Source of the DNA: Candidatus Cloacimonadota bacterium
GTDB taxonomy: Bacteria; Cloacimonadota; Cloacimonadia; Cloacimonadales; TCS61
DNA length: 32,373 bases
Assembly (NCBI GenBank): GCA_021734245.1
Contig: JAIPJH010000028.1
Location: 1-32,373 of the forward strand
Reading direction: 5' to 3'
Shown here: piece by piece, positions 20,491 through 32,024 of the stretch
Position numbering within the stretch: the first letter of the stretch is position 1
How the letters are laid out: each line of letters opens with the position of its first letter
Made by a program: the position numbers and the translations under genes
The notes under the pieces: generated by a model
Told to the model about the DNA's origin: nothing
Seen by the model: the letters and a program-made list of their open reading frames with translations, nothing else
Databases searched by the model: none

Positions 20491-20545
20491 CTTAACACTT
20501 TCTTAACCAATAGTTTAAACCAACCTAACAAATAAACTGTATAAT
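20491..20545 (+). promoter_or_regulatory. Predicted tandem Pho box and promoter of the PHP-glycosyltransferase
   Basis: Four 7-mers lie at an exact 11-bp period: CTTAACA (20491), CTTAACC (20502), GTTTAAA (20513) and CCTAACA (20524). Nine bases later comes TATAAT (20540-20545), and the gene starts 28 bp further on. There is no good -35 hexamer, as expected of an activator-dependent promoter. The same four-unit array with identical spacing precedes the porin/pst operon at 32024-31970. That link points to a PhoB/PhoP-type response regulator. Confidence 0.75.
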
Positions 20546-20573
20546 ATTTACAAAATGAATATTGGGAGAAAAA

Positions 20574-22925
20574 ATGGCTAAAGTTGATTTACACTGTCAT
20601 TCGTTTTATTCGGAACATCCATCGGAATGGTTTCTGCAAAGGTTGGGAGCCAAAGAATCTTACACAGAACCGGAAGTCGTTTATAAAGAACTGATCAAAA
20701 AAGGAATGGATTTTGTAACCATTACCGATCACAATCGCATCGAAGGTGCGCTGAAACTAAAAAAGAAACATCCCGGGAAAGTGATCGTCGGTTTGGAAGC
20801 TACTGCCTACTTTCCCGAAGATAACTGCAAAATTCATATTCTGGTTTATGGCTTAAATGAAATACAATTCGAAAAGATCCAACGCATCAGAACCAATATT
20901 TATGAATTACGAGATTATCTGAAAGCGGAAAATTTAGCTCATTCAGTTGCTCATGCCACATATTCTGTAAACGGAAAATTGAAGCAGGAACATGTGGAAA
21001 AACTGCTGCTGCTTTTCGATGTTTTTGAAGGCGTGAACGGTGGCAGGAACGATCTTCATAACAAATCATGGATTAAGATAATTTCCAACTTAACGAAAGA
21101 ACAGATACAAGAATTGCAGCAAAAATACGATATCGAGCCTTTCAGCGAATCTCCCTGGATAAAAGGAGTTACAGGCGGCTCGGATGATCATGCCGGAATA
21201 TTTCTGGGAATGACTTACACCGAATCGAAAGCAAAAACTCTCGCTGAATTTCTGGATGATATACGCAATAAAAAAACAACTTCTCATGGCAGACACAACA
21301 ACTATCAGGGCTTAGCATTTGCAGTTTACAAAATTGCCATGGATTTTGCCAAAACCAAAAGTACAGGTTTTTCCAGCTCAGTTTTTGGAAAGCTTAGTGA
21401 ATATATCTATTCTGATTCATCTCTCAGTTTGATCCACAAAATGAAAATAAAAAATATGAGCCGTTCTTCCAGAAATCAAGATGATCAGCTCAAACGATCA
21501 ATTGCCGAACTGGTTGAAACATTACAGAAAGGAAAATATAAAGATATCGACAGCAGATTGAATGTAGCTTATGAGAAGATCTCTGATTTTGTGGATAGTT
21601 TTTTCATGGTATTATTTGAATCTTTCGAAGAAAACATGGCGCAGGGAAATCTATTGAAAATAATCAGGAATCTGTCTTCATCACTGCCGGGAATTTTTAT
21701 GACGCTGCCTTTCTTTACTACGATCAGTCACATATTTGCCAATAGAGATCTGCTGAACAACTTGAATAAAAAATTCAATATTGAAACCACAAATGATGAC
21801 AAAAATGTGCTCTGGTTCACCGATACGATTGGAGATTTGAATGGAGTAGCTGCTACCTTGAGCAAAGTTCATGAGATTTCCAAAAACCATAAATATGGAA
21901 TTCGTGTTATCAGTTCCGACCTGAATAAAACTGAAGATTCAAACTATATCGATCTGCCCGTGATCTACGAATTCAAGCTTCCCTATTATGAACATCAAAG
22001 TATCAAATTTCCATCACTTCTATTGGCGATGAAAAAGATCTACGATGCAAATCCCAGCAGAATAATCGTATCTACTCCCGGCCCTTTTGGATTGCTGGCA
22101 TTATTGGCTTCAAAACTCTTTAATATAGAATGTGTCGGCGTTTATCACACCGATTTTACAGCGCAGGCAGAAGGCGTGAAAGGAGATGAATCTCTCATTT
22201 CATTTGTCGATAGTTTCACTCACTGGTTCTATCAGCAAATGGACATGAATTATGTTCCCTCTCAGGCTTATATCGATATTCTAGAAGATCGTGGTTTTGA
22301 CCGTACAAAAATGAAAATATTCCCACGTGGAATAGAATACGACAAATTTTATCCGGTTAAATATGGTCGAGAATTTTTGAAAGATCAATTCAATTTGCAG
22401 GATGGAAAATATTTCCTATATACAGGAAGAATCTCGCATGATAAAGATTTGGTGCTTGTTTTAGAAGCTTTCAAGAATATCCTGGAAACCCGAAATGATT
22501 TCTATCTGATCTTGATTGGAGATGGACCGCACAAAGAAGAATTGGAAAATCTTTATGCCAACGGAAACATAATATTTACCGGAAGATTGGATCGTAGTTT
22601 ATTACCAAACTATTATTCCGGTGCCGATCTTTTCTTGTTTCCCAGCCGAACAGATACATTCGGTATGTCGGTATTGGAAGCACAAGCCTGCTGCCTTCCG
22701 GCCTTGGTAAGTTCGGTGGGCGGACCAAAAGAGATCATCGTAGATGGCGAAACAGGCTACATAATAAAAGAAAACACAATAGAAAGCTGGCAGAATAAGA
22801 TGCAGGAATTGATCGAAAAAATGGATAATGATAGAGATTTTGCCCTCGATCTGCGAGAAAATTCCCGCAAGAATGTGGTTAACAAGTCAAATTGGAATTT
22901 GTTCTTTAAGGAATTTGTAAATTAG
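20574..22925 (+). CDS. PHP phosphoesterase-GT4 glycosyltransferase fusion
   Basis: A 783-residue two-enzyme protein; GGGAGA precedes the ATG. Residues 1-~250 are a PHP domain with metal-binding motifs DLHCHS (H7, H9), TDHN (D52, H53), GLE (E75) and GGSDDH. A helical linker (~250-405) contains a hydrophobic stretch. Residues ~410-783 are a GT4 (GT-B fold) glycosyltransferase with VYHTDF, TGRISHDKDL, the donor-site segment FPSRTDTFGMSVLEA (Asp as first acid of the EX7E pair) and GGPKEI. VYHTDF and DTFG recall the SqdX/Agt/MgtA group that glycosylates diacylglycerol or related lipids. No signal peptide is present, so it should act at the cytoplasmic membrane face. A Pho-type operator suggests induction at low phosphate. 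Lipid remodelling is inferred; the substrate is unknown. Confidence 0.85.
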   Translation: MAKVDLHCHSFYSEHPSEWFLQRLGAKESYTEPEVVYKELIKKGMDFVTITDHNRIEGALKLKKKHPGKVIVGLEATAYFPEDNCKIHILVYGLNEIQFEKIQRIRTNIYELRDYLKAENLAHSVAHATYSVNGKLKQEHVEKLLLLFDVFEGVNGGRNDLHNKSWIKIISNLTKEQIQELQQKYDIEPFSESPWIKGVTGGSDDHAGIFLGMTYTESKAKTLAEFLDDIRNKKTTSHGRHNNYQGLAFAVYKIAMDFAKTKSTGFSSSVFGKLSEYIYSDSSLSLIHKMKIKNMSRSSRNQDDQLKRSIAELVETLQKGKYKDIDSRLNVAYEKISDFVDSFFMVLFESFEENMAQGNLLKIIRNLSSSLPGIFMTLPFFTTISHIFANRDLLNNLNKKFNIETTNDDKNVLWFTDTIGDLNGVAATLSKVHEISKNHKYGIRVISSDLNKTEDSNYIDLPVIYEFKLPYYEHQSIKFPSLLLAMKKIYDANPSRIIVSTPGPFGLLALLASKLFNIECVGVYHTDFTAQAEGVKGDESLISFVDSFTHWFYQQMDMNYVPSQAYIDILEDRGFDRTKMKIFPRGIEYDKFYPVKYGREFLKDQFNLQDGKYFLYTGRISHDKDLVLVLEAFKNILETRNDFYLILIGDGPHKEELENLYANGNIIFTGRLDRSLLPNYYSGADLFLFPSRTDTFGMSVLEAQACCLPALVSSVGGPKEIIVDGETGYIIKENTIESWQNKMQELIEKMDNDRDFALDLRENSRKNVVNKSNWNLFFKEFVN

Positions 22926-23412: not shown

Positions 23413-24069
23413 TTATTCTTCAATATCGGTTTTGTGTTTTATCACGGTTCCTTCAGCCATATAAATAGTTTCTTCGGCAATATTGGTAGAAAGATCGGCA
23501 ATTCTTTCCAGGTTCTGAGAAATATTGTTGATATTGAAAGCTCTCTTGATATTTCCCGGATTATCCATCATATAAGTTATCAAAACTCGATAGATCTGCT
23601 CTTTCAAATCATCTACAATGTCGTCATCGATGCAGACCTGCTTAGCTAAAACTACATTTTCATCTACAAATGCGGTAATTGTATTTTTCAGCATTTTCAG
23701 AGTTTCTTCTGCCATGGATGGAATGTTGATAAGTTTTTTTATAAAAGGTTTTTGAATGAGATATTGAGCTCTTTTTGTGATGTTCACTGCCAGATCTCCC
23801 ATACGTTCCAAATCGTTGTTCATGGCAATTATCATCAAGATGATCCTTAAGTTTTTTGCTTCTGGTTTTTGCAGGGCAATCAGAGTTGTGGCTTCTTCTT
23901 CTATTTCCAGTTCTCGTTTGTTGATCTCATCTTCCAGATCAAAAACTTCTGCCAGTTTTTTTTCATCGCGTTCCAGCAAGCCTGCCATGGAAAGCTGGAT
24001 CATTTTTTCTACTTTGTTAGCTTGTTCGATTATAGATTTTTTGAGTTCCTGTATTTGTTTTAATAACAT
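23413..24069 (-). CDS. phoU: PhoU-family phosphate signalling regulator (copy A)
   Basis: A 218-residue all-helical protein with two PhoU repeats. Each carries the metal-binding ExxxDxxxN/D pattern: DLERMGDLAVNI and NLERIADLSTNIAEE. PhoU links the Pst transporter to the PhoR/PhoB two-component system, repressing the Pho regulon when phosphate is plentiful. GAGGTG lies before the ATG. It is the last gene of the operon, 14 bp behind a pstS. It is clearly paralogous to the phoU at 25074-25739 (both start ML...I..LKK..IEQ) and has diverged throughout. Confidence 0.94.
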   Translation of the reverse strand: MLLKQIQELKKSIIEQANKVEKMIQLSMAGLLERDEKKLAEVFDLEDEINKRELEIEEEATTLIALQKPEAKNLRIILMIIAMNNDLERMGDLAVNITKRAQYLIQKPFIKKLINIPSMAEETLKMLKNTITAFVDENVVLAKQVCIDDDIVDDLKEQIYRVLITYMMDNPGNIKRAFNINNISQNLERIADLSTNIAEETIYMAEGTVIKHKTDIEE

Positions 24070-24083
24070 TTTATCACCTCGAT

Positions 24084-25073
24084 TTAGTTATTTATCATTT
24101 CAATTATTTTTTGTGCTTTGAATACAGTTTCCGGTGGCATTGGAGCATAATTTAGAGCAGGAGCAAAAGCCTGTCCTTCCGATACCATCCAATTCAAAAG
24201 TTTCTTCAGCTTACCAATTTTTTCCTGGTCCAAATATTCAGGATTTCTGTGAACAATTATCCAGGTGAAACTACTTATGGGATAACCAAATTCAGCATTG
24301 GTATTTGTGATGTAGATCTTTGTATCTTCAGGAATTTCGGTTTCTGCCGCCACGCTTACACTTACCATGGAAGGCAATACAAAATTTCCGCTGGAATTCT
24401 GGATTTTTGCAAAAGACATTCTATTTTCGATGGCATAAGAAAGACTCAAGAATCCGATCGAACCGGACATGTCAGCTATAAAACTTGCCATTTCTTCATT
24501 ACTTCTGGTAGAAAAAGCAAAGAATTTCTTAAGAGGATTTTCTTTTCTGTTTTTCCATTCCGTACTAACTTTGCACAGGTAATCGTTAAATATTTTGGAG
24601 GTTCCGCTTTCATCGGCTCTGTTAATTATCAGAATTCTCTGGTTGGGAAGAACAACATCAGGATTCAATGTAGTGATCTCATCATCATTCCAATGTGTGA
24701 TCTTTCCCATGAAGATTTTTACCAGTAGTTCCGAAGTTAAATTCAACATCGGTTTGGCAGGAAGATTGTATACAACTGCAACAGCTCCCAAAGAGGTGGG
24801 AATGTATAAAATATTTTCTGAATCAGCTTTTTCCATGATGATGTCTGTGGCAGCAAAATCAACGCTTTTTTCTTTTAAACGGAAAATTCCACTACCCGAT
24901 CCAATTCCCTGATAACCGATTTTCTGGCCGGTTGCTTTTTCATATTCCAGGAACATTTTCTTATAAAGTGGTTCTGGGAATGTAGCGCCTGCTCCGCTCA
25001 GATCTTTTTCAAAATTGGAGCAGCCAATTACGATAAGAATAACAGTAACAATTATAAATAGAATTTTTTTCAT
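24084..25073 (-). CDS. pstS: Phosphate-binding lipoprotein PstS, classical type (copy 3)
   Basis: Periplasmic phosphate receptor of the Pst ABC transporter, 329 residues. A lipobox VIGC (C18) predicts a lipid-anchored protein. The mature part opens with LSGAGATFPEPLYKKMF and has YQGIGSGSGI and ADESGTSKIF. These are phosphate-contacting motifs of the E. coli-like PstS group. The other two PstS of this operon belong to a shorter, different subgroup (GSTT[VI]LPI). Its ATG directly abuts the upstream phoU stop. Position between two phoU genes, far from pstCAB, is unusual. A receptor with different affinity or a sensory role is possible. Confidence 0.93.
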   Translation of the reverse strand: MKKILFIIVTVILIVIGCSNFEKDLSGAGATFPEPLYKKMFLEYEKATGQKIGYQGIGSGSGIFRLKEKSVDFAATDIIMEKADSENILYIPTSLGAVAVVYNLPAKPMLNLTSELLVKIFMGKITHWNDDEITTLNPDVVLPNQRILIINRADESGTSKIFNDYLCKVSTEWKNRKENPLKKFFAFSTRSNEEMASFIADMSGSIGFLSLSYAIENRMSFAKIQNSSGNFVLPSMVSVSVAAETEIPEDTKIYITNTNAEFGYPISSFTWIIVHRNPEYLDQEKIGKLKKLLNWMVSEGQAFAPALNYAPMPPETVFKAQKIIEMINN

Positions 25074-25739
25074 TTATCCCTCATTAGATTGAACAGGAAG
25101 GCATTTTGGCACATGCTTCACGATATCTCCCTGACAAATGTAAATTGTATTTTCAGCTATATTTGTAGAAAGATCTGCAATTCTTTCATAATTCTTGGAG
25201 ATCCTGTTCATATGAAGTGCGATCTCCACAGATATTTTCATATTATTAATAAGCAGTTTAAATATCCGATCATGAAGTCTGTCAATAGAATCATCTTGTT
25301 TTCTCACGTCCAATGCCAGTTCATTGTCTTCGTATATGAATGCACTCATAGCATTCTGCAGCATTTTCTTGGCATCTTTGGCCAGTTTTGCCAATTCGAT
25401 GATAGGCTTGTAGAATGGTTTTTGCAGTAAGAATTTGTAGCTTCTGGCAATGTTCACCGTAAGATCACCCATTCTTTCTAATTCGATATTAATCTTCATT
25501 ATTGCCAGTATCATTCGCAAGTTGCGGCATTCCGGTGTGTGCAAAGCTATCAGATTCATGCATAGTTCATCGATATCGTTATCCATTTTGTTCACGACAG
25601 TTTCCAATGCTAAAACCTGATTCAGATTCTCAGGTTTCTTCTCGATGTAACCCTTGAAACAAAGCTCCATCATGTTTTCGATCAGCATAGACTGCTCGAT
25701 CAGCATTTTCTTTAGTTTTCCGATTCTTTCTGATAACAT
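25074..25739 (-). CDS. phoU: PhoU-family phosphate signalling regulator (copy B)
   Basis: A two-repeat PhoU protein, 221 residues from the ATG at 25739, with NIELERMGDLTVNIA and NYERIADLSTNIAEN. I prefer this ATG over the in-frame GTG at 25748. GGGTG would then serve as ribosome-binding site, and the N-terminus (MLSERIGKLKKMLIEQ) matches that of phoU copy A. It lies 53 bp downstream of pstB and abuts the third pstS. It ends in a short extra tail (PKCLPVQSNEG). Two PhoU paralogs could divide transporter control and histidine-kinase control, but this is a guess. Confidence 0.93.
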   Translation of the reverse strand: MLSERIGKLKKMLIEQSMLIENMMELCFKGYIEKKPENLNQVLALETVVNKMDNDIDELCMNLIALHTPECRNLRMILAIMKINIELERMGDLTVNIARSYKFLLQKPFYKPIIELAKLAKDAKKMLQNAMSAFIYEDNELALDVRKQDDSIDRLHDRIFKLLINNMKISVEIALHMNRISKNYERIADLSTNIAENTIYICQGDIVKHVPKCLPVQSNEG

Positions 25740-25792
25740 TTCAATCACCCGAATTTAAAATTTTATCCAAAAACACCTCTGTGATCAGGTTT

Positions 25793-26569
25793 TTAACCAA
25801 ACACACCTGATAGATAAGCTTCCGTACGTTTATCTTTGGGAACTGTAAACATCTTCTTGGTTTCGCCAAATTCCACCATTTCTCCCAGATACATAAAAGC
25901 TGTGAAATCGGAAATTCTACCTGCTTGAGCGATATTGTGGGTTACGATCAGGATGGTAACCTTAGTTTTCAAATCCAGACAGAGTTCTTCGATCTTGGCT
26001 GTAGATTGCGGATCCAGAGCCGAAGTCGGTTCGTCCAATAATAGAATATCGGGATTATTTGCCAATGCCCGGGCAATACACAAACGCTGCTGCTGACCGC
26101 CCGATAAAGAGAATGCAGATGCAGAAAGTCGATCTTTAACTTCATCCCAGAGCCAGGCATTTTTCAAACTTGTTTCCACCACTTCATCGATGTAAGATTT
26201 ATTTTCGCCGCGTATTTTTAAGCCATAAGCGATGTTGTTATAGATTGTTTTTGGAAAGGGATTCGGTCGTTGAAATACCATTCCTACTTTTGTACGAACC
26301 CTGGTTACATCTGTTTTAGGTTCATAAATATTATGTTTATTCAGAAGAACTTTGCCTTTGATCTTAGCTTCCGGAATTAGATCATTCATTCTGTTAAAAC
26401 AGCGCAGCAGAGTAGATTTTCCGCAGCCGGAAGGTCCGATTAAGGCGGTAACTTTTCTATCGTAAATCGGTATGTTCACATCTTTCAGCACATGCTTTTC
26501 GCTGAACCAGAGATTCAAATCTTCGGTGCGAATATGAGCTGTAATTTGATTTTTGTTTTCGTTTACCAT
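25793..26569 (-). CDS. pstB: Phosphate ABC transporter ATPase
   Basis: The 258-residue ATP-binding subunit that powers phosphate import. Walker A is GPSGCGKS (45-52), the Q-loop is in [11 protein letters not shown], signature LSGGQQQR is near 155, Walker B is [13 protein letters not shown] and the H-loop is VTHN. The FQ(R/K)PNPFP stretch and the FGETKKMF segment are typical of PstB rather than other ABC ATPases. Its start overlaps the pstA stop by 7 nt (ATGGTAA), so translation is coupled and 1:1 stoichiometry is plausible. Confidence 0.97.
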
Positions 26570-27417
26570 TTTCTCTTTTTCCTTATATTATATCGAATTA
26601 TTATTGCTACAGTACTAACCAGTAAGACCAATGCCAGAAGTACAACTGCAGTTCCATAAGCTATTGGAACTTGTTTATCGGCATGAGCACCTTCCGTCAT
26701 CAATGCATAAATATGATAGGGAAGAGCCATCACTTCATCCATTACGCTGGTGGGAAGGTGACGAGTATAAAAAGTAGCTGCAGTGAACAGGATCGGAGCA
26801 GTTTCTCCTGCTACGCGACCAATGCTGATGATTGCACCGGTTAATATATTGGGTAGTGCGGTTGGCAGTATGACCCTTAAAATTGTCTGTCTTTCTGTAG
26901 CTCCCAGAGCCAGAGATGCTTCTCTGAAATCATGAGGAACACTACGCAGAGCTTCTTCACTGGCGTTTATCATCACAGGAAGTGCCAGAATTGCCAAAGT
27001 AAGCGATCCTGCCAGCATCGATACATCCATCTGGAAAAGCTGCACGAATACTGCCATCCCAAATAAACCGTAAATAATGGAAGGAACACCAGCCAGAGTG
27101 TTTACTGCAATTCTAACCAGCTTTACGAACCAGGCCGGTTTTGCATAACTTACCATATAAATCGCTGTGAAAACGCCTAGCGGGAGTGCGATCAAAATTG
27201 AAAGAATCGTTAAATAGAAAGTTCCCATTATTGCCGGAAAAATTCCACCTTCGGTCATAAATCTGCGGGGAGATTCTGTAAGGAATGACCAGGTGACCAC
27301 TTTCCCGCCTTTACTGAAAATAACATAAAGGAACATGATCAGGAAAATAGCTGTGATCGCAATAAAAAGACGAAGCGCATTTACACCTAAAAACTGTTTT
27401 AATTCTCTTTTGTTCAT
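26563..27417 (-). CDS. pstA: Phosphate ABC transporter permease PstA
   Basis: A 284-residue inner-membrane permease with six predicted membrane helices and the ATPase-coupling EAA loop [21 protein letters not shown]. PstA forms the translocation pore with PstC. GAAGG lies 8 nt before the ATG. That ATG overlaps the stop of the repeat-derived ORF at 27414-27845 (ATGA). In most genomes pstA follows pstC directly; here 424 bp separate them. Confidence 0.96.
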
Positions 27418-27845
27418 AAATAAACCTTCACTAAATCGTCATTCTGCCTGCCAAGCCGAAGCCGAGCAAAGGCTGGACGTTTCTTGCACGTTGTTGTTAT
27501 TTCTTCGTGCCGCTTTGCCGGTACAGGTGGGAAGATTCTCGTCATCAAGGAATCCAGGTCAGTTTCCCTTTTATGTGTCGCTTTTGAAAGCAGAACGTCA
27601 CTTTCCTCAGTTTTTTCTAGGGGGGAAGTCCCGAGGTCATCCTGAGTGATTCGGCTTCTGCCGAATTGTATCGAAGGATCGGGACAGAGGGGTTTTGTTA
27701 GTTCAATAATAAATGATTTAAATTTAATCGAACCCCCTCCCAGTGGAATATCCATAGGATTCCACGGGATAAATTTTATTCCCCCTTCTAAGGGGGACAT
27801 TGCATAAGACTCTCCAAAAATAAATAATTTTTTATCGATCATCAT
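27414..27845 (-). CDS. Repeat-derived ORF joining pstC and pstA
   Basis: A 143-codon frame that fills the pstC-pstA gap exactly. Its ATG overlaps the pstC stop (ATGA) and its TGA overlaps the pstA start (ATGA). The DNA consists of modules of the dispersed repeat family. The peptide shares SPLEGGIKFIPW, MDIPLGGGS, IELT.P and FPPV.AK...E with the ORF between pstS and pstC. It has no signal peptide, membrane helix or recognised domain. It may be a non-functional filler kept open because ribosome passage protects the operon from polarity, or a real small protein. I lean to the former. Confidence 0.35.
   Translation of the reverse strand: MMIDKKLFIFGESYAMSPLEGGIKFIPWNPMDIPLGGGSIKFKSFIIELTKPLCPDPSIQFGRSRITQDDLGTSPLEKTEESDVLLSKATHKRETDLDSLMTRIFPPVPAKRHEEITTTCKKRPAFARLRLGRQNDDLVKVYL
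27437..27540. repeat. Dispersed mosaic repeat, copy 4 (inside the pst operon)
   Basis: The GTCATTCTGCCTGCC module is joined to AAGCCG...GGCTGGACGTTTCTTG and GCCGGTACAGGTGGGAAG. The 50-bp palindromic unit is missing from this copy. Confidence 0.75.
27628..27685. repeat. Nested cruciform-like palindrome
   Basis: Three nested stems share one axis: GTCCCGA/TCGGGAC (27628-27634 with 27679-27685), ATCCT/AGGAT (27639 and 27675) and ATTCGGC/GCCGAAT (27649-27655 with 27660-27666). It lies within the repeat-filled pstC-pstA spacer. Confidence 0.7.
27687..27800. repeat. Second repeat module, copy A
   Basis: Begins GTTTTGTTAGTTCAATA and carries CGAACCCCCTCCCAGTGG, a hairpin GTGGAAT/ATTCCAC (27743-27765) and a perfect hairpin CCCCCTT-CT-AAGGGGG (27781-27796). 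It closely matches 28989-29100 in the neighbouring spacer, in the same orientation. Confidence 0.85.
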
Positions 27846-28714
27846 GTCTGATTCCTTTTCTTTTGGAAAACAAACTCTGTTATCAGGTTTGTGATAAACG
27901 TAATAATAAATAATACTACTGCAATTCCAAACAGTGCATGAAAATGCGGACTGCCAAAAACAGTCTCGCCCATTTCGGCGGCAATTGTAGCTGTCATTGG
28001 TCGTACAGGATCGAACATGCTGGTTGGAATCTGAGCTGCGCCACCGGCAACCATGATTACTACCATTGTTTCTCCGATCGCTCTACCAAATCCTAAAATG
28101 ATACTTCCCAAAACTCCTGAACGAGCTGCTGGAAGCACAACGCGCACTATAGTTTCCCAACGATTTGCACCCAAAGCAAGCGAGGCTTCTCTCAAACTTT
28201 TGGGTACCGTAGAAAGTGCATCTTCGCTCATGCTGGAAACTATCGGTACAACCATAATCCCCAGGATTATAGAAGCAGAAAGTGCATTCAAACCTGTGGG
28301 AATTCCAAAAACTTTTATTAAAAATGGTGATAGGAATGCCATTCCAAAAAGGCCATAAACCACAGAAGGAATTCCAGCCAGAAGTTCGATGATCGGTTTT
28401 ATTATTTCTTTTGTTCTCGGACCGGCAATTTCTGAAATATAAATGGCAGAACCAAGACCGAGAGGTATGGAAATAACCAAAGCTCCGGCAGTTACAACCA
28501 GCGATCCCACAATCAGAGAAAGAATTCCAAAATCCGGCGGATACATGGTGGGATGCCATTTTGTGCTTCCTATAAAATCTTTTAATTTTATAAGATTGAG
28601 GATCGGAATACCTTCGGTAAACAGACTGAAAATGATTCCAAAAAGTGCAACTATGGTGAATAAGGAAGCGATGTAGGTGATGCTTTTAAATATTTTTTCT
28701 TTATAATTATTCAT
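27842..28714 (-). CDS. pstC: Phosphate ABC transporter permease PstC
   Basis: A 290-residue inner-membrane permease with six predicted helices. It has the periplasmic W-H-P region after the first helix and the EAA loop [21 protein letters not shown] that docks PstB. AIGETMVV in the fifth helix region is typical of PstC. GGGAG lies 7 nt before the ATG. Both neighbouring spacers are filled with repeat modules (431 bp before, 424 bp after). Confidence 0.96.
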   Translation of the reverse strand: MNNYKEKIFKSITYIASLFTIVALFGIIFSLFTEGIPILNLIKLKDFIGSTKWHPTMYPPDFGILSLIVGSLVVTAGALVISIPLGLGSAIYISEIAGPRTKEIIKPIIELLAGIPSVVYGLFGMAFLSPFLIKVFGIPTGLNALSASIILGIMVVPIVSSMSEDALSTVPKSLREASLALGANRWETIVRVVLPAARSGVLGSIILGFGRAIGETMVVIMVAGGAAQIPTSMFDPVRPMTATIAAEMGETVFGSPHFHALFGIAVVLFIITFITNLITEFVFQKKRNQT

Positions 28715-28723
28715 GAGTTACTC

Positions 28724-28922
28724 CCGTCATTCTGCCTGCCCTGTGGAATGCAGCTTTGCTGCTGGTTTTTCCAATTCCACCGGGCCTGCCCTGTGGAATG
28801 CAGCTTTGCTGCTGATTTTTCCAATTCCACCGGGCCTGCCAAGTCGTAGCAGAGCAAAGGCTGGACGTATCTTGCACGATGTTCTAACGGCTTCGTAATA
28901 CTTTGCCGTAACAGGTGGGAAG
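28724..28922. repeat. Dispersed mosaic repeat, copy 5, with tandem 50-bp unit
   Basis: The most complete copy. The 50-bp palindromic unit occurs twice in direct tandem (28741-28790 and 28791-28840) with a single base difference. The GGCTGGACGTATCTTG module and TTTGCCGTAACAGGTGGGAAG follow. Confidence 0.9.
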
Positions 28923-29149
28923 AATTTATTTATCAAAAAATCCTGTTTAGCTCCCCTTCGTAAGGGGAGAAGTCGACGCAGTCGACAGATGGGTTCTGTT
29001 AGTTCAATAGTTAATGTTTTAATATTAAACGAACCCCCTCCCAGTGGAATATCCATATGATTCCACGGGATAAATTTTATTCCACCTTCTAAAGGGGACT
29101 TATCATTGGGAACCTCAGAAAGACGATTATGATAAATATTATTCATCAC
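28727..29149 (-). CDS. Repeat-derived ORF joining pstS and pstC
   Basis: A 140-codon frame whose GTG overlaps the pstS stop (GTGA) and which ends 12 bp before pstC. It consists of the same repeat modules as the 27414-27845 ORF, read in the same frame. Shared blocks are SPLEGGIKFIPW, MDIPLGGGS, IELT.P and FPPVTAKYYEAVRT followed by RPAFA. There is no domain or signal. As with its sibling, it may only serve to keep ribosomes moving through the spacer. Probability of a functional protein is low. Confidence 0.3.
   Translation of the reverse strand: MMNNIYHNRLSEVPNDKSPLEGGIKFIPWNHMDIPLGGGSFNIKTLTIELTEPICRLRRLLPLRRGAKQDFLINKFFPPVTAKYYEAVRTSCKIRPAFALLRLGRPGGIGKISSKAAFHRAGPVELEKPAAKLHSTGQAE
28989..29100. 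repeat. Second repeat module, copy B
   Basis: Matches 27687-27800: GGGTTCTGTTAGTTCAATAG, CGAACCCCCTCCCAGTGG, the GTGGAAT/ATTCCAC hairpin, then GGATAAATTTTATTCC. Its final hairpin has decayed (CCACCTTCTAAAGGGG). Confidence 0.85.
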
Positions 29150-29970
29150 TTAATCCTTACATAACCTTGTTCTTCCACGCTTTTCTGTCCTTCTTCCGAC
29201 AAAATATAATCGATGAATTCCAAAGCGGGTTTGCGAGGTTGGGAAGATGTGTACATATATAATAATCTGGTTAATCTGTATTCATTTGATTGAGCTGTTT
29301 CGTTGTTGGGAAAAACACCATCGATGGAAAGAGTTTTCAATTCATCATTCACATATCCCAATCCAATATATCCGATAGCTCCCGGCGTGTAACTTACGGT
29401 TGTAGCAACAGCATTATTCGAAGCTAATCGCATGGAATTTTCTTTAACCTGGGAACTGTCTAAAACCACTTCATTGAAAACCAGGAAAGAACCGGAAGAA
29501 ACATCTCGAGAAATAACAATGATCTCCATGTCTTTTCCTCCAATTTCTTTCCAGTTGTTTATTTTTCCGGAATAGATGGATTTCAATTCTTGCATGCTAA
29601 GATTTGTTAAGGGATTATTTTTGTGAACTACAATTGAAATAGCATCTTTGGCGATAGCAGTTTCGATGAGATCGGAGTCCTTTTCCTCCACCAGATCAGC
29701 TTCTTTATTGGTTATTCTTCTCGAAGCATTTCCGATATCAATGGTTTGATTGATGGCAGATTTGATGCCAATACTGCTGCCGCCGCCACGTACTGAAATA
29801 TTGATCTCGGGATTTTTATCCATATAAGCTTCTGCTGCAGCCTGAACGATCGGTAAAATAGTAGTAGAACCGGCAGTATTAATTGTTGTGGATTTCTGGG
29901 AACAAGCCAGAACCAAAACCAAAACTGCCACTCCGGCCAGTATCAGGATGAGCAACTTTTTTAATATCAT
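29146..29970 (-). CDS. pstS: Phosphate-binding lipoprotein PstS (copy 2)
   Basis: A 274-residue periplasmic phosphate receptor, lipid-anchored through VLAC (C23). It has the short-PstS motifs INTAGSTTILPIVQA, SVRGGGSSIGI, SRDVSSGSF (phosphate-contacting Ser/Arg/Asp loop) and GAIGYIGLGYV. It is a close paralog of the next upstream gene (30038-30850), which carries an ordinary cleavable signal instead of a lipobox. The pair may be a membrane-bound and a free receptor for the same permease. It lies behind the hairpin at 29988-30018. Confidence 0.95.
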   Translation of the reverse strand: MILKKLLILILAGVAVLVLVLACSQKSTTINTAGSTTILPIVQAAAEAYMDKNPEINISVRGGGSSIGIKSAINQTIDIGNASRRITNKEADLVEEKDSDLIETAIAKDAISIVVHKNNPLTNLSMQELKSIYSGKINNWKEIGGKDMEIIVISRDVSSGSFLVFNEVVLDSSQVKENSMRLASNNAVATTVSYTPGAIGYIGLGYVNDELKTLSIDGVFPNNETAQSNEYRLTRLLYMYTSSQPRKPALEFIDYILSEEGQKSVEEQGYVRIK

Positions 29971-29987
29971 AATATCTTCCTAAATTT

Positions 29988-30018
29988 AAAAAAACGGGGA
30001 GACGGGAAAAGCCTCCCC
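29988..30018 (-). terminator. Intercistronic terminator-like hairpin between two pstS genes
   Basis: GGGGAG (29996-30001) pairs with CTCCCC (30013-30018), followed on the minus strand by seven T (29988-29994). It lies 19 bp past the pstS copy 1 stop and 18 bp before the pstS copy 2 start. Partial termination or 3'-end protection here would make porin and first-PstS message more abundant than permease message. Confidence 0.75.
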
Positions 30019-30037
30019 ATTTCGTTAGTTGTTATTT

Positions 30038-30850
30038 TTAGTTTACGCTGATGAATCCTTGTTCTTCAACGAGTTTCTGTCCTTCGGGGGAAAGGATGAA
30101 ATCAATGTATTCTTTTACCAGTCCTTTAGGTTTTCCATTTGTGTACATGTGCAATGTTCGAGCTATAGGATAGGATTTATCTTGAATAGTAATTTTTGTA
30201 GGCATCACGTTGTTCACTTTCACTACATTCACAGAATTGGTGATATAACCGAGTCCGGCATATCCGATAGCACCTGGTGTGCTTTCTACTGTAGAAACAA
30301 CAGCATTATTGGAAGCAAGCATCAAAGCACTACTGATTTGGGTAGAACCACTTAGAACCAGAGAGTTGAAAACTTCAAATGTACCGGAAGATACATCACG
30401 GCTGATAATAACAATAGGCATAGAAGGTCCGCCAATGTCTTTCCAGTTGCTGATCTTGCCCATATAAATATCTTTAATTTGCTCAACAGTAAGATTTTTT
30501 ACAAGGTTATCTCTGTGAACAACCATGGCGATTCCGTCGTTTGCCACAACGTTTTCATAAGGATTGATACCGCTTTCACGAGCAGCTGCAATTTCTTTGG
30601 CTTTGATATGACGGGAAGCATCACCGATATCTACTGTGCCAGCCATGATGGAAGCGATACCAACGCTTGATCCGCCACCACGAACTGAGATGTTTACATC
30701 AGGATTTTGATCCATGAAAATCTCGGCTGTAGCTTGAGCGATTGGAAGTACAGTTGTAGACCCGGAAATTGTGATCTGTTTGCCTTTTTTTGCAAAAACC
30801 GGAAAAGCTACCAGGGCTAAAAGGGCTATAATAAGTATAGTTTTTTTCAT
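30038..30850 (-). CDS. pstS: Soluble periplasmic phosphate-binding protein PstS (copy 1)
   Basis: A 270-residue receptor with a type I signal peptide (cut after A20, PVFA), so it is free in the periplasm. Motifs are ISGSTTVLPIAQA, SVRGGGSSVGI, SRDVSSGTF and GAIGYAGLGYI. High overall similarity to the lipoprotein PstS encoded next shows a tandem duplication followed by anchor change. It follows the porin after 15 bp and is followed by an attenuator-like hairpin. It is expected to be the most highly expressed uptake protein here, fed by the porin. Confidence 0.96.
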   Translation of the reverse strand: MKKTILIIALLALVAFPVFAKKGKQITISGSTTVLPIAQATAEIFMDQNPDVNISVRGGGSSVGIASIMAGTVDIGDASRHIKAKEIAAARESGINPYENVVANDGIAMVVHRDNLVKNLTVEQIKDIYMGKISNWKDIGGPSMPIVIISRDVSSGTFEVFNSLVLSGSTQISSALMLASNNAVVSTVESTPGAIGYAGLGYITNSVNVVKVNNVMPTKITIQDKSYPIARTLHMYTNGKPKGLVKEYIDFILSPEGQKLVEEQGFISVN

Positions 30851-30865
30851 TTTAATTACCTCAAT

Positions 30866-31918
30866 TTATTTCTTGTTAATTGTTTCGGAGAAGATCCAGC
30901 GCAGCTGAACCAGAATCTGGTTTACGGCATCAGATTCATCTTCGAAGGTCGTGGTTTCATAGTTGGCCTGAACAAAAAGTACAGGCTTGTTTTTGCTGTC
31001 GCGCAGCATATTGTAATTCACACCGGCGATCAGAGTGTTTTTTCCATCATCATCTGTATCTGTATCAGGATCGTAGATGTCGTAACGAGCAATAATATCG
31101 AACGAATTATTAACTTTAAATACAGGCATTACAGAAATCACAGAAGAAGTTACATCGTCCACTGCATCATCGTTTGGCATGGCTTTTACTTTATTCAAAT
31201 ACTGGCCTAAAACGCTGAACGGACCATAAGCAAACTTGGCAACGCCAGCCATCATGTTGTATTCTTCACGAGCTGGATTGTCGATCATATTTCCGGTTCC
31301 ATCATCTACTTCCTTGTCTTTGACAGTTTTGATCATATAAGAACCGCCGAGAGTAAGACCAACGATCGGAGTTACACGGATGTTTCCCAGGAAGTTCATG
31401 TCTTTGTTGATATCACCTGCTGTTTTCTTGTAGCCTTCACCGTTGTAAACTGCCAGAGCATAAGTTCCCAAGCCGTTTGGAAGATAACCGCTGAATCCCA
31501 TACCATAATCTGTGGAGCTGACAAATTTGTACTTGTCAGATGGATCTTTTTCGATGGTTGTGTAGTTCCAATCATAGATCGTTCCAAAATAAGTTTTCAT
31601 CAAGCCAACAGTAACTTTACTGTTTTTTACGGGAATAAGTTCGCTGAAATCAAGATAAGCATACTTCAGCTTCATACCAACACCGTCGCCCACATCGTCG
31701 CTGAAAAAATCCAGATTGAAGCGTCCCTTGATTTTTCCCGTGAATTTAGGTTCTAAACGCAAATAACCTCTTTTCAGTGCCATCTCATTTTTCTGAACTT
31801 CACCGTCGATTGTTTCATAACTCCAACGATTCCAAAGTTCCATTTTAAGTTTGGTTTCTGCATTCAAAATACCAAAAGCAACAATTGCCAAAATAACGAT
31901 AAAAAGTGTTTTTTTCAC
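30866..31918 (-). CDS. Phosphate-selective porin (OprP/OprO-like)
   Basis: An outer-membrane barrel of 350 residues. I place the start at the GTG at 31918: AGGAGG lies 5 nt upstream and the resulting protein begins with a clean signal peptide (cut after A20, ILNA). The longer ORF would add twelve charged residues before it. The mature part shows alternating strands and LKMELWNRWSYE and RGYLRLEPKF, like the phosphate-selective porin O/P family. It ends QILVQLRWIFSETINKK. Being first in the pst operon and behind the predicted Pho operator supports phosphate or polyphosphate passage. Specificity is inferred from context and weak family resemblance. Confidence 0.85.
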   Translation of the reverse strand: MKKTLFIVILAIVAFGILNAETKLKMELWNRWSYETIDGEVQKNEMALKRGYLRLEPKFTGKIKGRFNLDFFSDDVGDGVGMKLKYAYLDFSELIPVKNSKVTVGLMKTYFGTIYDWNYTTIEKDPSDKYKFVSSTDYGMGFSGYLPNGLGTYALAVYNGEGYKKTAGDINKDMNFLGNIRVTPIVGLTLGGSYMIKTVKDKEVDDGTGNMIDNPAREEYNMMAGVAKFAYGPFSVLGQYLNKVKAMPNDDAVDDVTSSVISVMPVFKVNNSFDIIARYDIYDPDTDTDDDGKNTLIAGVNYNMLRDSKNKPVLFVQANYETTTFEDESDAVNQILVQLRWIFSETINKK

Positions 31919-31969
31919 TCTTTCCTCCTTTTTTTTAAGATGCTGTTGCATCATTTTTTTTCACACCCT

Positions 31970-32024
31970 GTTGTACGATGCGAAAGTTAAAGAAGTATAA
32001 ACGAATTGTTAAGATTGTGTTAAG
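31970..32024 (-). promoter_or_regulatory. Predicted tandem Pho box and promoter of the porin/pst operon
   Basis: On the minus strand four 7-mers repeat every 11 bp: CTTAACA (32024-32018), CTTAACA (32013-32007), GTTTATA (32002-31996) and TTTAACT (31991-31985). Nine bases later comes TACAAC (31975-31970) as a -10. The porin GTG lies 51 bp beyond. The order and kind of repeat (two good, one GTTTANA, one variant) and the 9-nt spacing equal those of the array at 20491-20545. Confidence 0.75.

Follow-up and report, generated by a model that had tools for sequence, protein, structure and literature searches.

The genes plcP and agt serve as genomic markers of lipid remodeling during phosphate stress. 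In the closest described systems, the PlcP-Agt pairs of Pseudomonas aeruginosa (PA3219-PA3218, PA0842), Phaeobacter and Sinorhizobium, a Pho-controlled phosphoesterase is combined with a GT4 glycosyltransferase that converts diacylglycerol to MGDG or GADG (PMC8528852, PMC4796936), with both Agt1 and Agt2 reported to produce MGDG and GADG from this acceptor (PMC8528852). An anaerobe, Desulfovibrio alaskensis, requires the glycosyltransferase Dde_3613, presented as an "Agt homolog," to form MGDG and GADG when phosphate is limiting (PMC5193443). We analyzed a 32,373-nucleotide stretch (hereafter the window) of the 3.1-Mb draft genome of a Candidatus Cloacimonadota bacterium, in which one gene encodes a predicted PHP-type phosphoesterase joined to a GT4 glycosyltransferase whose sister clade contains the PlcP-Agt transferases. 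PlcP is a separate calcineurin-type enzyme, whereas the phosphoesterase of PHP-GT4 adopts an unrelated PHP fold and is fused N-terminally to the glycosyltransferase.

The initial annotation had proposed that a single 783-residue ORF joins a PHP domain to a GT4 domain with a DTFG-type donor site, behind a Pho-box-like array, and each of these elements was borne out. The ORF is intact, the model of the full-length protein is confident (pLDDT 87.9, pTM 0.82), the donor site reads D694-T-F-G...E702 within the PF00534 region, and the array consists of four repeats followed by a -10 hexamer, with a twin at the pst operon (Table 1). According to hydropathy and the model, the mostly helical linker includes a hydrophobic helix at residues of about 359-388, which is conserved and is a possible membrane-docking element.

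Table 1. Features of the fusion gene and of the neighbouring phosphate cluster, in window coordinates
Feature	Position	Strand	Basis or remark
Pho-box-like operator, four 11-bp direct repeats (20492, 20503, 20514, 20525)	20492..20535	+	direct reading, ortholog periodicity
-10 hexamer TATAAT, 4 bp past last repeat	20540..20545	+	direct reading; spacing as at pst promoter
Ribosome-binding site GGGAGA	20564..20569	+	direct reading
PHP-GT4 fusion gene	20574..22925	+	783 aa plus stop; ATG start; full-length orthologs
Predicted PHP phosphoesterase domain, residues 1-242	20574..21299	+	ligands, fold model, PDB matches
Linker, mostly helical, residues 243-404	21300..21785	+	model, hydropathy, conservation
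GT4 (GT-B) glycosyltransferase domain, residues 405-783	21786..22922	+	Pfam, HMM, tree, model
pstS, pstS, pstC, pstA, pstB, phoU, pstS, phoU and two unassigned ORFs	23413..30850	-	phosphate uptake/signaling
Phosphate-selective porin (OprO/P-like)	30866..31918	-	PF07396; direct reading
-10 hexamer TACAAC, porin-pst promoter	31970..31975	-	direct reading
Second Pho-box-like array, four 11-bp repeats, 5' of porin-pst-phoU operon	31980..32023	-	

The fusion is not confined to the window. We retrieved 80 related loci from over ten phyla, the closest carrying relatives of the host genome being Cloacimonadota, and the PHP ligands and GT4 residues are essentially invariant across the family. An assembly artefact or accidental fusion was rejected, the protein being full-length in most of the 80 loci and in Desulfobacterota genomes. 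In the latter phylum, PHP-GT4 was detected at E<=1e-60 in 40 of 297 genomes. Named carriers include Desulfuromusa kysingii DSM 7343, Malonomonas rubra DSM 5091, Alkalispirochaeta alkalica DSM 8900 and Pelovirga terrestris M08fum. We found no description of a PHP-GT fusion in the open-access literature. Dde_3613 is a proven phosphate-dependent glycolipid synthase, but no PHP domain is mentioned for it in PMC5193443; given how common the PHP-GT4 family is in Desulfobacterota, it could be an unrecognized member. Loci L019 (1363-3906, -) and L020 (190-2745, -) represent a second PHP-GT4 subfamily, whose proteins (about 850-890 aa, 27-30% identity) have an extended linker. No obvious Pho-like array was found upstream of either gene; similarly long PHP-GT4 frames also occur in Desulfobacterota.

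The N-terminal half falls short of the gathering cut-off of the Pfam PHP model PF02811 (26.4), with 16.5 bits for the full-length protein and 19.8 bits for the N terminus alone, and a sequence-profile search of the PDB with this half gave no match. We nevertheless assign it, on the model and its ligands, to a divergent PHP subfamily, because both the fold and the metal ligands fit. The motifs HxH, TDH, E, H, H and SDDH are all present, each of the predicted ligands (H7, H9, D52/H53, E75, H88, H127, D204, H206) is shared by 70 to 72 of the 72 homologs, and the AlphaFold model of this half (pLDDT 91.8) finds PHP proteins exclusively among its significant PDB matches, namely RNase AM, BAD_1165, TM0559, the C. 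violaceum AMP phosphatase and PHP-containing bacterial DNA polymerases. The sub-threshold Pfam score would also fit a degenerate or regulatory PHP domain that leaves the glycosyltransferase as the sole catalyst; this is very improbable, since the metal ligands are essentially invariant in the 72 sequences and the PHP domain is the most conserved part of the protein (mean pairwise identity of 57%, vs. 40-43% for the glycosyltransferase).

RNase AM (YciV/TrpH), TM0559 and the C. violaceum AMP phosphatase share the PHP fold and metal-ligand motifs with the fusion but, unlike it, carry no glycosyltransferase, and their substrates, where known, are nucleotides or RNA. Nucleotides or RNA/DNA are also what the nearest PHP proteins of solved structure act on, and we know of no PHP protein that acts on lipids. 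One could thus imagine, the best structural neighbors (RNase AM, the AMP phosphatase) being nucleotide- or RNA-directed, that the GT4 domain makes the glycolipid from diacylglycerol supplied elsewhere and that the PHP domain clears the nucleotide by-product (UDP, UMP or other), which would pull the reaction and recover phosphate. We regard this as unlikely: the structural matches are moderate (identity of 16% or less, TM of about 0.5 for the best), and other glycosyltransferases of the clade are paired with lipid-type phosphoesterases.

As for the C-terminal half, its assignment to GT4 is straightforward: PF00534 matches residues 600-765 above cut-off (2e-38), the donor motif E/D-x7-E is present, D694, E702, R619 and K624 are invariant, and the fold is GT-B. 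The substrates of GT4 enzymes are hard to assign from sequence; a full-length Foldseek search returned generic GT4 enzymes, and many GT4 models of Pfam and NCBIfam score alike on this half. A family HMM ranks Agt2 types highest (183-185 bits), followed by LafA (149) and then by background GT4s of relatives (about 110 or less), with Escherichia coli WcaL and WaaG at 64 and 42. Among 34 records from a plasmid collection, the top score (131 bits) went to the P. aeruginosa plcH-plcR-GT locus, which corresponds, by locus order, to PA0842 (Agt2). In a maximum-likelihood tree, whose references were partly picked by similarity and which leaves out TuaC and SqdX, the PHP-GT4 clade (100/99) and the second, longer subfamily (100/94) are sister to Agt1/Agt2 (97/92) and stand apart from the tested capsule/LPS GT4s. 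Clustering with capsule or protein glycosyltransferases, which would have spoken against the initial annotation, was therefore not seen with the capsule/LPS enzymes tested, and a capsule/LPS identity was rejected on the HMM ranking and the tree. By its position in the tree, we class this half as related to Agt without being its ortholog, because its clade is separate from Agt1/Agt2. These relationships indicate that it very probably puts sugars on membrane lipids. A Listeria diacylglycerol glucosyltransferase, which we take to be of the LafA type from its locus and background knowledge, also lies near this half in both the HMM ranking and the tree; unlike PHP-GT4, it is a stand-alone lipoteichoic-acid anchor enzyme with no phosphoesterase.

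Two other assignments of the glycosyltransferase step were weighed. The teichuronic acid system of Bacillus is Pho-induced and its TuaC is a GT4 enzyme, so that PHP-GT4 might be a Pho-regulon protein glycosylating a phosphate-free cell-envelope polymer, and the TuaC model scores 70 bits on the window protein, on a par with the 67 bits of the MGlcDAG synthase model. We consider this quite improbable, in that the HMM and the tree (from which TuaC is absent) place this half with Agt, and the recurrent neighbors of the fusion are Pho and ornithine-lipid genes, with no polysaccharide cluster standing out. The order of the two reactions might also be reversed, the GT4 domain first glycosylating an acceptor that bears phosphate, be it lysophosphatidic or phosphatidic acid, glycerol phosphate or a PGP-like lipid, with the PHP domain then stripping the phosphate. 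Glycosyltransferase-phosphatase fusions of such logic are classical, as in the trehalose-6-phosphate and sucrose-phosphate synthase-phosphatase pairs, both active sites are intact, and the net products would still be a phosphate-free glycolipid plus phosphate. This order nonetheless appears unlikely to us, as Agt1 and Agt2, the closest relatives of the glycosyltransferase half in our tree, use free diacylglycerol (PMC8528852).

A separate plcP/agt pair elsewhere in the genome, a further finding that would have spoken against the initial annotation, was not seen either. No true PlcP was found in any of 51 carrier genomes, the best match (69 bits) lying in the LpxH-like identity range, when true PlcP proteins used as positive controls score 138-265 bits. 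The host genome has neither a PlcP (best match of 53 bits, 26% identity) nor a separate Agt, the window gene being its only Agt2 match at E<=1e-18, and a reciprocal Agt2 search of 28 carrier genomes returned, in each, an open frame of about 790-890 aa as best match. Among the 297 Desulfobacterota genomes, PlcP is encoded in 7 (138-265 bits), none of which is among the PHP-GT4 carriers; since chance would leave the two sets without overlap in roughly one case out of three, this is weak evidence by itself.

Time and again, glycosyltransferases of the Agt-related clade occur together with a phosphoesterase whose fold is not PHP (PlcP, PAP2, calcineurin-type). By analogy with these partners, and given the conservation of its active site, the PHP domain may well generate the diacylglycerol acceptor, a reading that we favor by a modest degree. 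Two further arrangements were observed. In Acinetobacter baumannii (L129, 3818-5692), an Agt2-like glycosyltransferase gene lies directly 5' of a PAP2-family phosphatase gene. Sulfitobacter faviae plasmid NZ_CP116426.1 (L147, 1469-3697) encodes a 742-aa fusion of a calcineurin-type phosphoesterase to a LafA/Agt-like GT4, of which we know no characterization. As in PHP-GT4, a phosphoesterase and an Agt/LafA-like GT4 share a single polypeptide, but the phosphoesterase fold is different, there is an N-terminal membrane segment and the glycosyltransferase sits on another branch of the tree; the protein represents an independent fusion.

Upstream of the fusion gene, the operator units read, in order, TTAACACTTTC TTAACCAATAG TTTAAACCAAC CTAACAAATAA, followed by ACTG and then TATAAT, and the fusion and porin-pst promoters have the same geometry of four 11-bp units, 4 bp and a -10 hexamer. 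A two-unit core match within the AT-rich window is not by itself statistically improbable, hence the operator is argued from its genome-wide frequency and from comparison. In the 3.1-Mb genome, there are 6 exact matches to the core TTAACN6TTAAC, two of which are full arrays, both in the window; the remaining four are not arrays. Upstream of the 80 related genes, identical 5-mers are in excess at lags 11 and 22 only, with 10.2 and 9.2 pairs per 1000 positions vs. about 2 at other lags, and no comparable peak was seen in 392 upstreams of other genes from the same loci. For the 69 non-Cloacimonadota orthologs, we counted 117 lag-11/22 pairs vs. 24 +/- 7 in 500 shuffles (maximum of 48). A chance origin of the array was rejected on the genome-wide count and this ortholog periodicity. 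Loss of the operator in orthologs, which would also have counted against the initial annotation, was not what we saw, the 11-bp spacing being kept across phyla.

Additional features of these loci bear on regulation. Although many of the 80 loci are short contigs, 10 of them have a whole or incomplete pst cluster no more than about 10 kb away; PHP-GT4 has phoB- and phoR-like neighbors in L051, L108 and L114, directly beside it (the L114 neighbor proteins were checked and are PhoB-like and PhoR-like); and in L037, L039, L057 and L114 the pst operon is preceded by the same type of array. A PhoB-like regulator is encoded in the host genome, although its 252 bits fall short of the curated cut-off. 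Pho control of the fusion gene is, from these comparisons, well supported. It may not be universal across the PHP-GT4 family, because under the strict 5-mer test each lag is seen in about 40% of upstreams, and repeats at a given lag are absent from more than half of the distant orthologs.

In the window, the porin gene beside the phosphate cluster likely starts not with the ATG at 31954 but with the GTG at 31918, which follows AGGAGG, and the two unassigned ORFs of the pst cluster (27414-27845 and 28727-29149, -; about 140 aa each) have no Pfam or NCBIfam match. OlsB and OlsA make ornithine lipid, which is phosphorus-free, and relatives of olsB-olsA, scoring below equivalog cut-offs, lie beside PHP-GT4 in six Deferribacterota loci. 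Other neighbors recur. A radical SAM protein of about 420 aa is encoded directly downstream in L058, L059, L060, L061, L065, L072, L074 and L093, in Deferribacterota and Desulfuromonadia. Members of a 590-640 aa family adjoin the fusion in L063 (53-1831, -), L107 (12226-14157, +), L076, L079 and L111; those of L063 and L107 have no Pfam match, and that of L063 no NCBIfam match either. A 404-aa protein near PHP-GT4 in L047 (8640-9854, -), with relatives in L045, L053 and L090, has no Pfam match, but toward its C terminus it displays the PHP-like motifs HPEQF and GDDTH.

Taken as a whole, we favor, with some reservation, a Pho-regulated lipid switch in one polypeptide, in which the PHP domain would supply diacylglycerol and the GT4 domain would glycosylate it. 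When phosphate is scarce, a PhoB-type regulator would bind the 11-bp repeats and drive transcription; the PHP domain would then remove the phosphate or phospho-headgroup from phosphatidic acid or a phospholipid, and the GT4 domain would move a hexose or hexuronic acid from a nucleotide-sugar onto the resulting diacylglycerol, yielding a phosphorus-free glycolipid. The best-supported part of this scheme, that PHP-GT4 is a Pho-regulated glycolipid synthase, appears highly likely, whereas what the PHP domain acts on, which sugar is moved, which step comes first and the docking to the membrane are what we infer. For the broader proposal, an undescribed, Pho-controlled bifunctional family in more than ten phyla whose members make phosphorus-free glycolipids as a single protein, we see the balance as even.

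If this reading is true, PHP-GT4 would be an alternative to PlcP-Agt in mainly anaerobic or little-studied bacteria, and lipid remodeling would be present in many anaerobes and candidate phyla to which it is currently denied. PHP-GT4 would also bring a lipid-directed activity to the PHP superfamily, the first lipid-acting PHP phosphoesterase to our knowledge, and offer a genetic origin for the MGDG that has been reported as abundant in anoxic waters. The named carriers, with their strain designations, make this reading directly testable. Anaerobes would probably swap phospholipids for glycolipids with a single protein.
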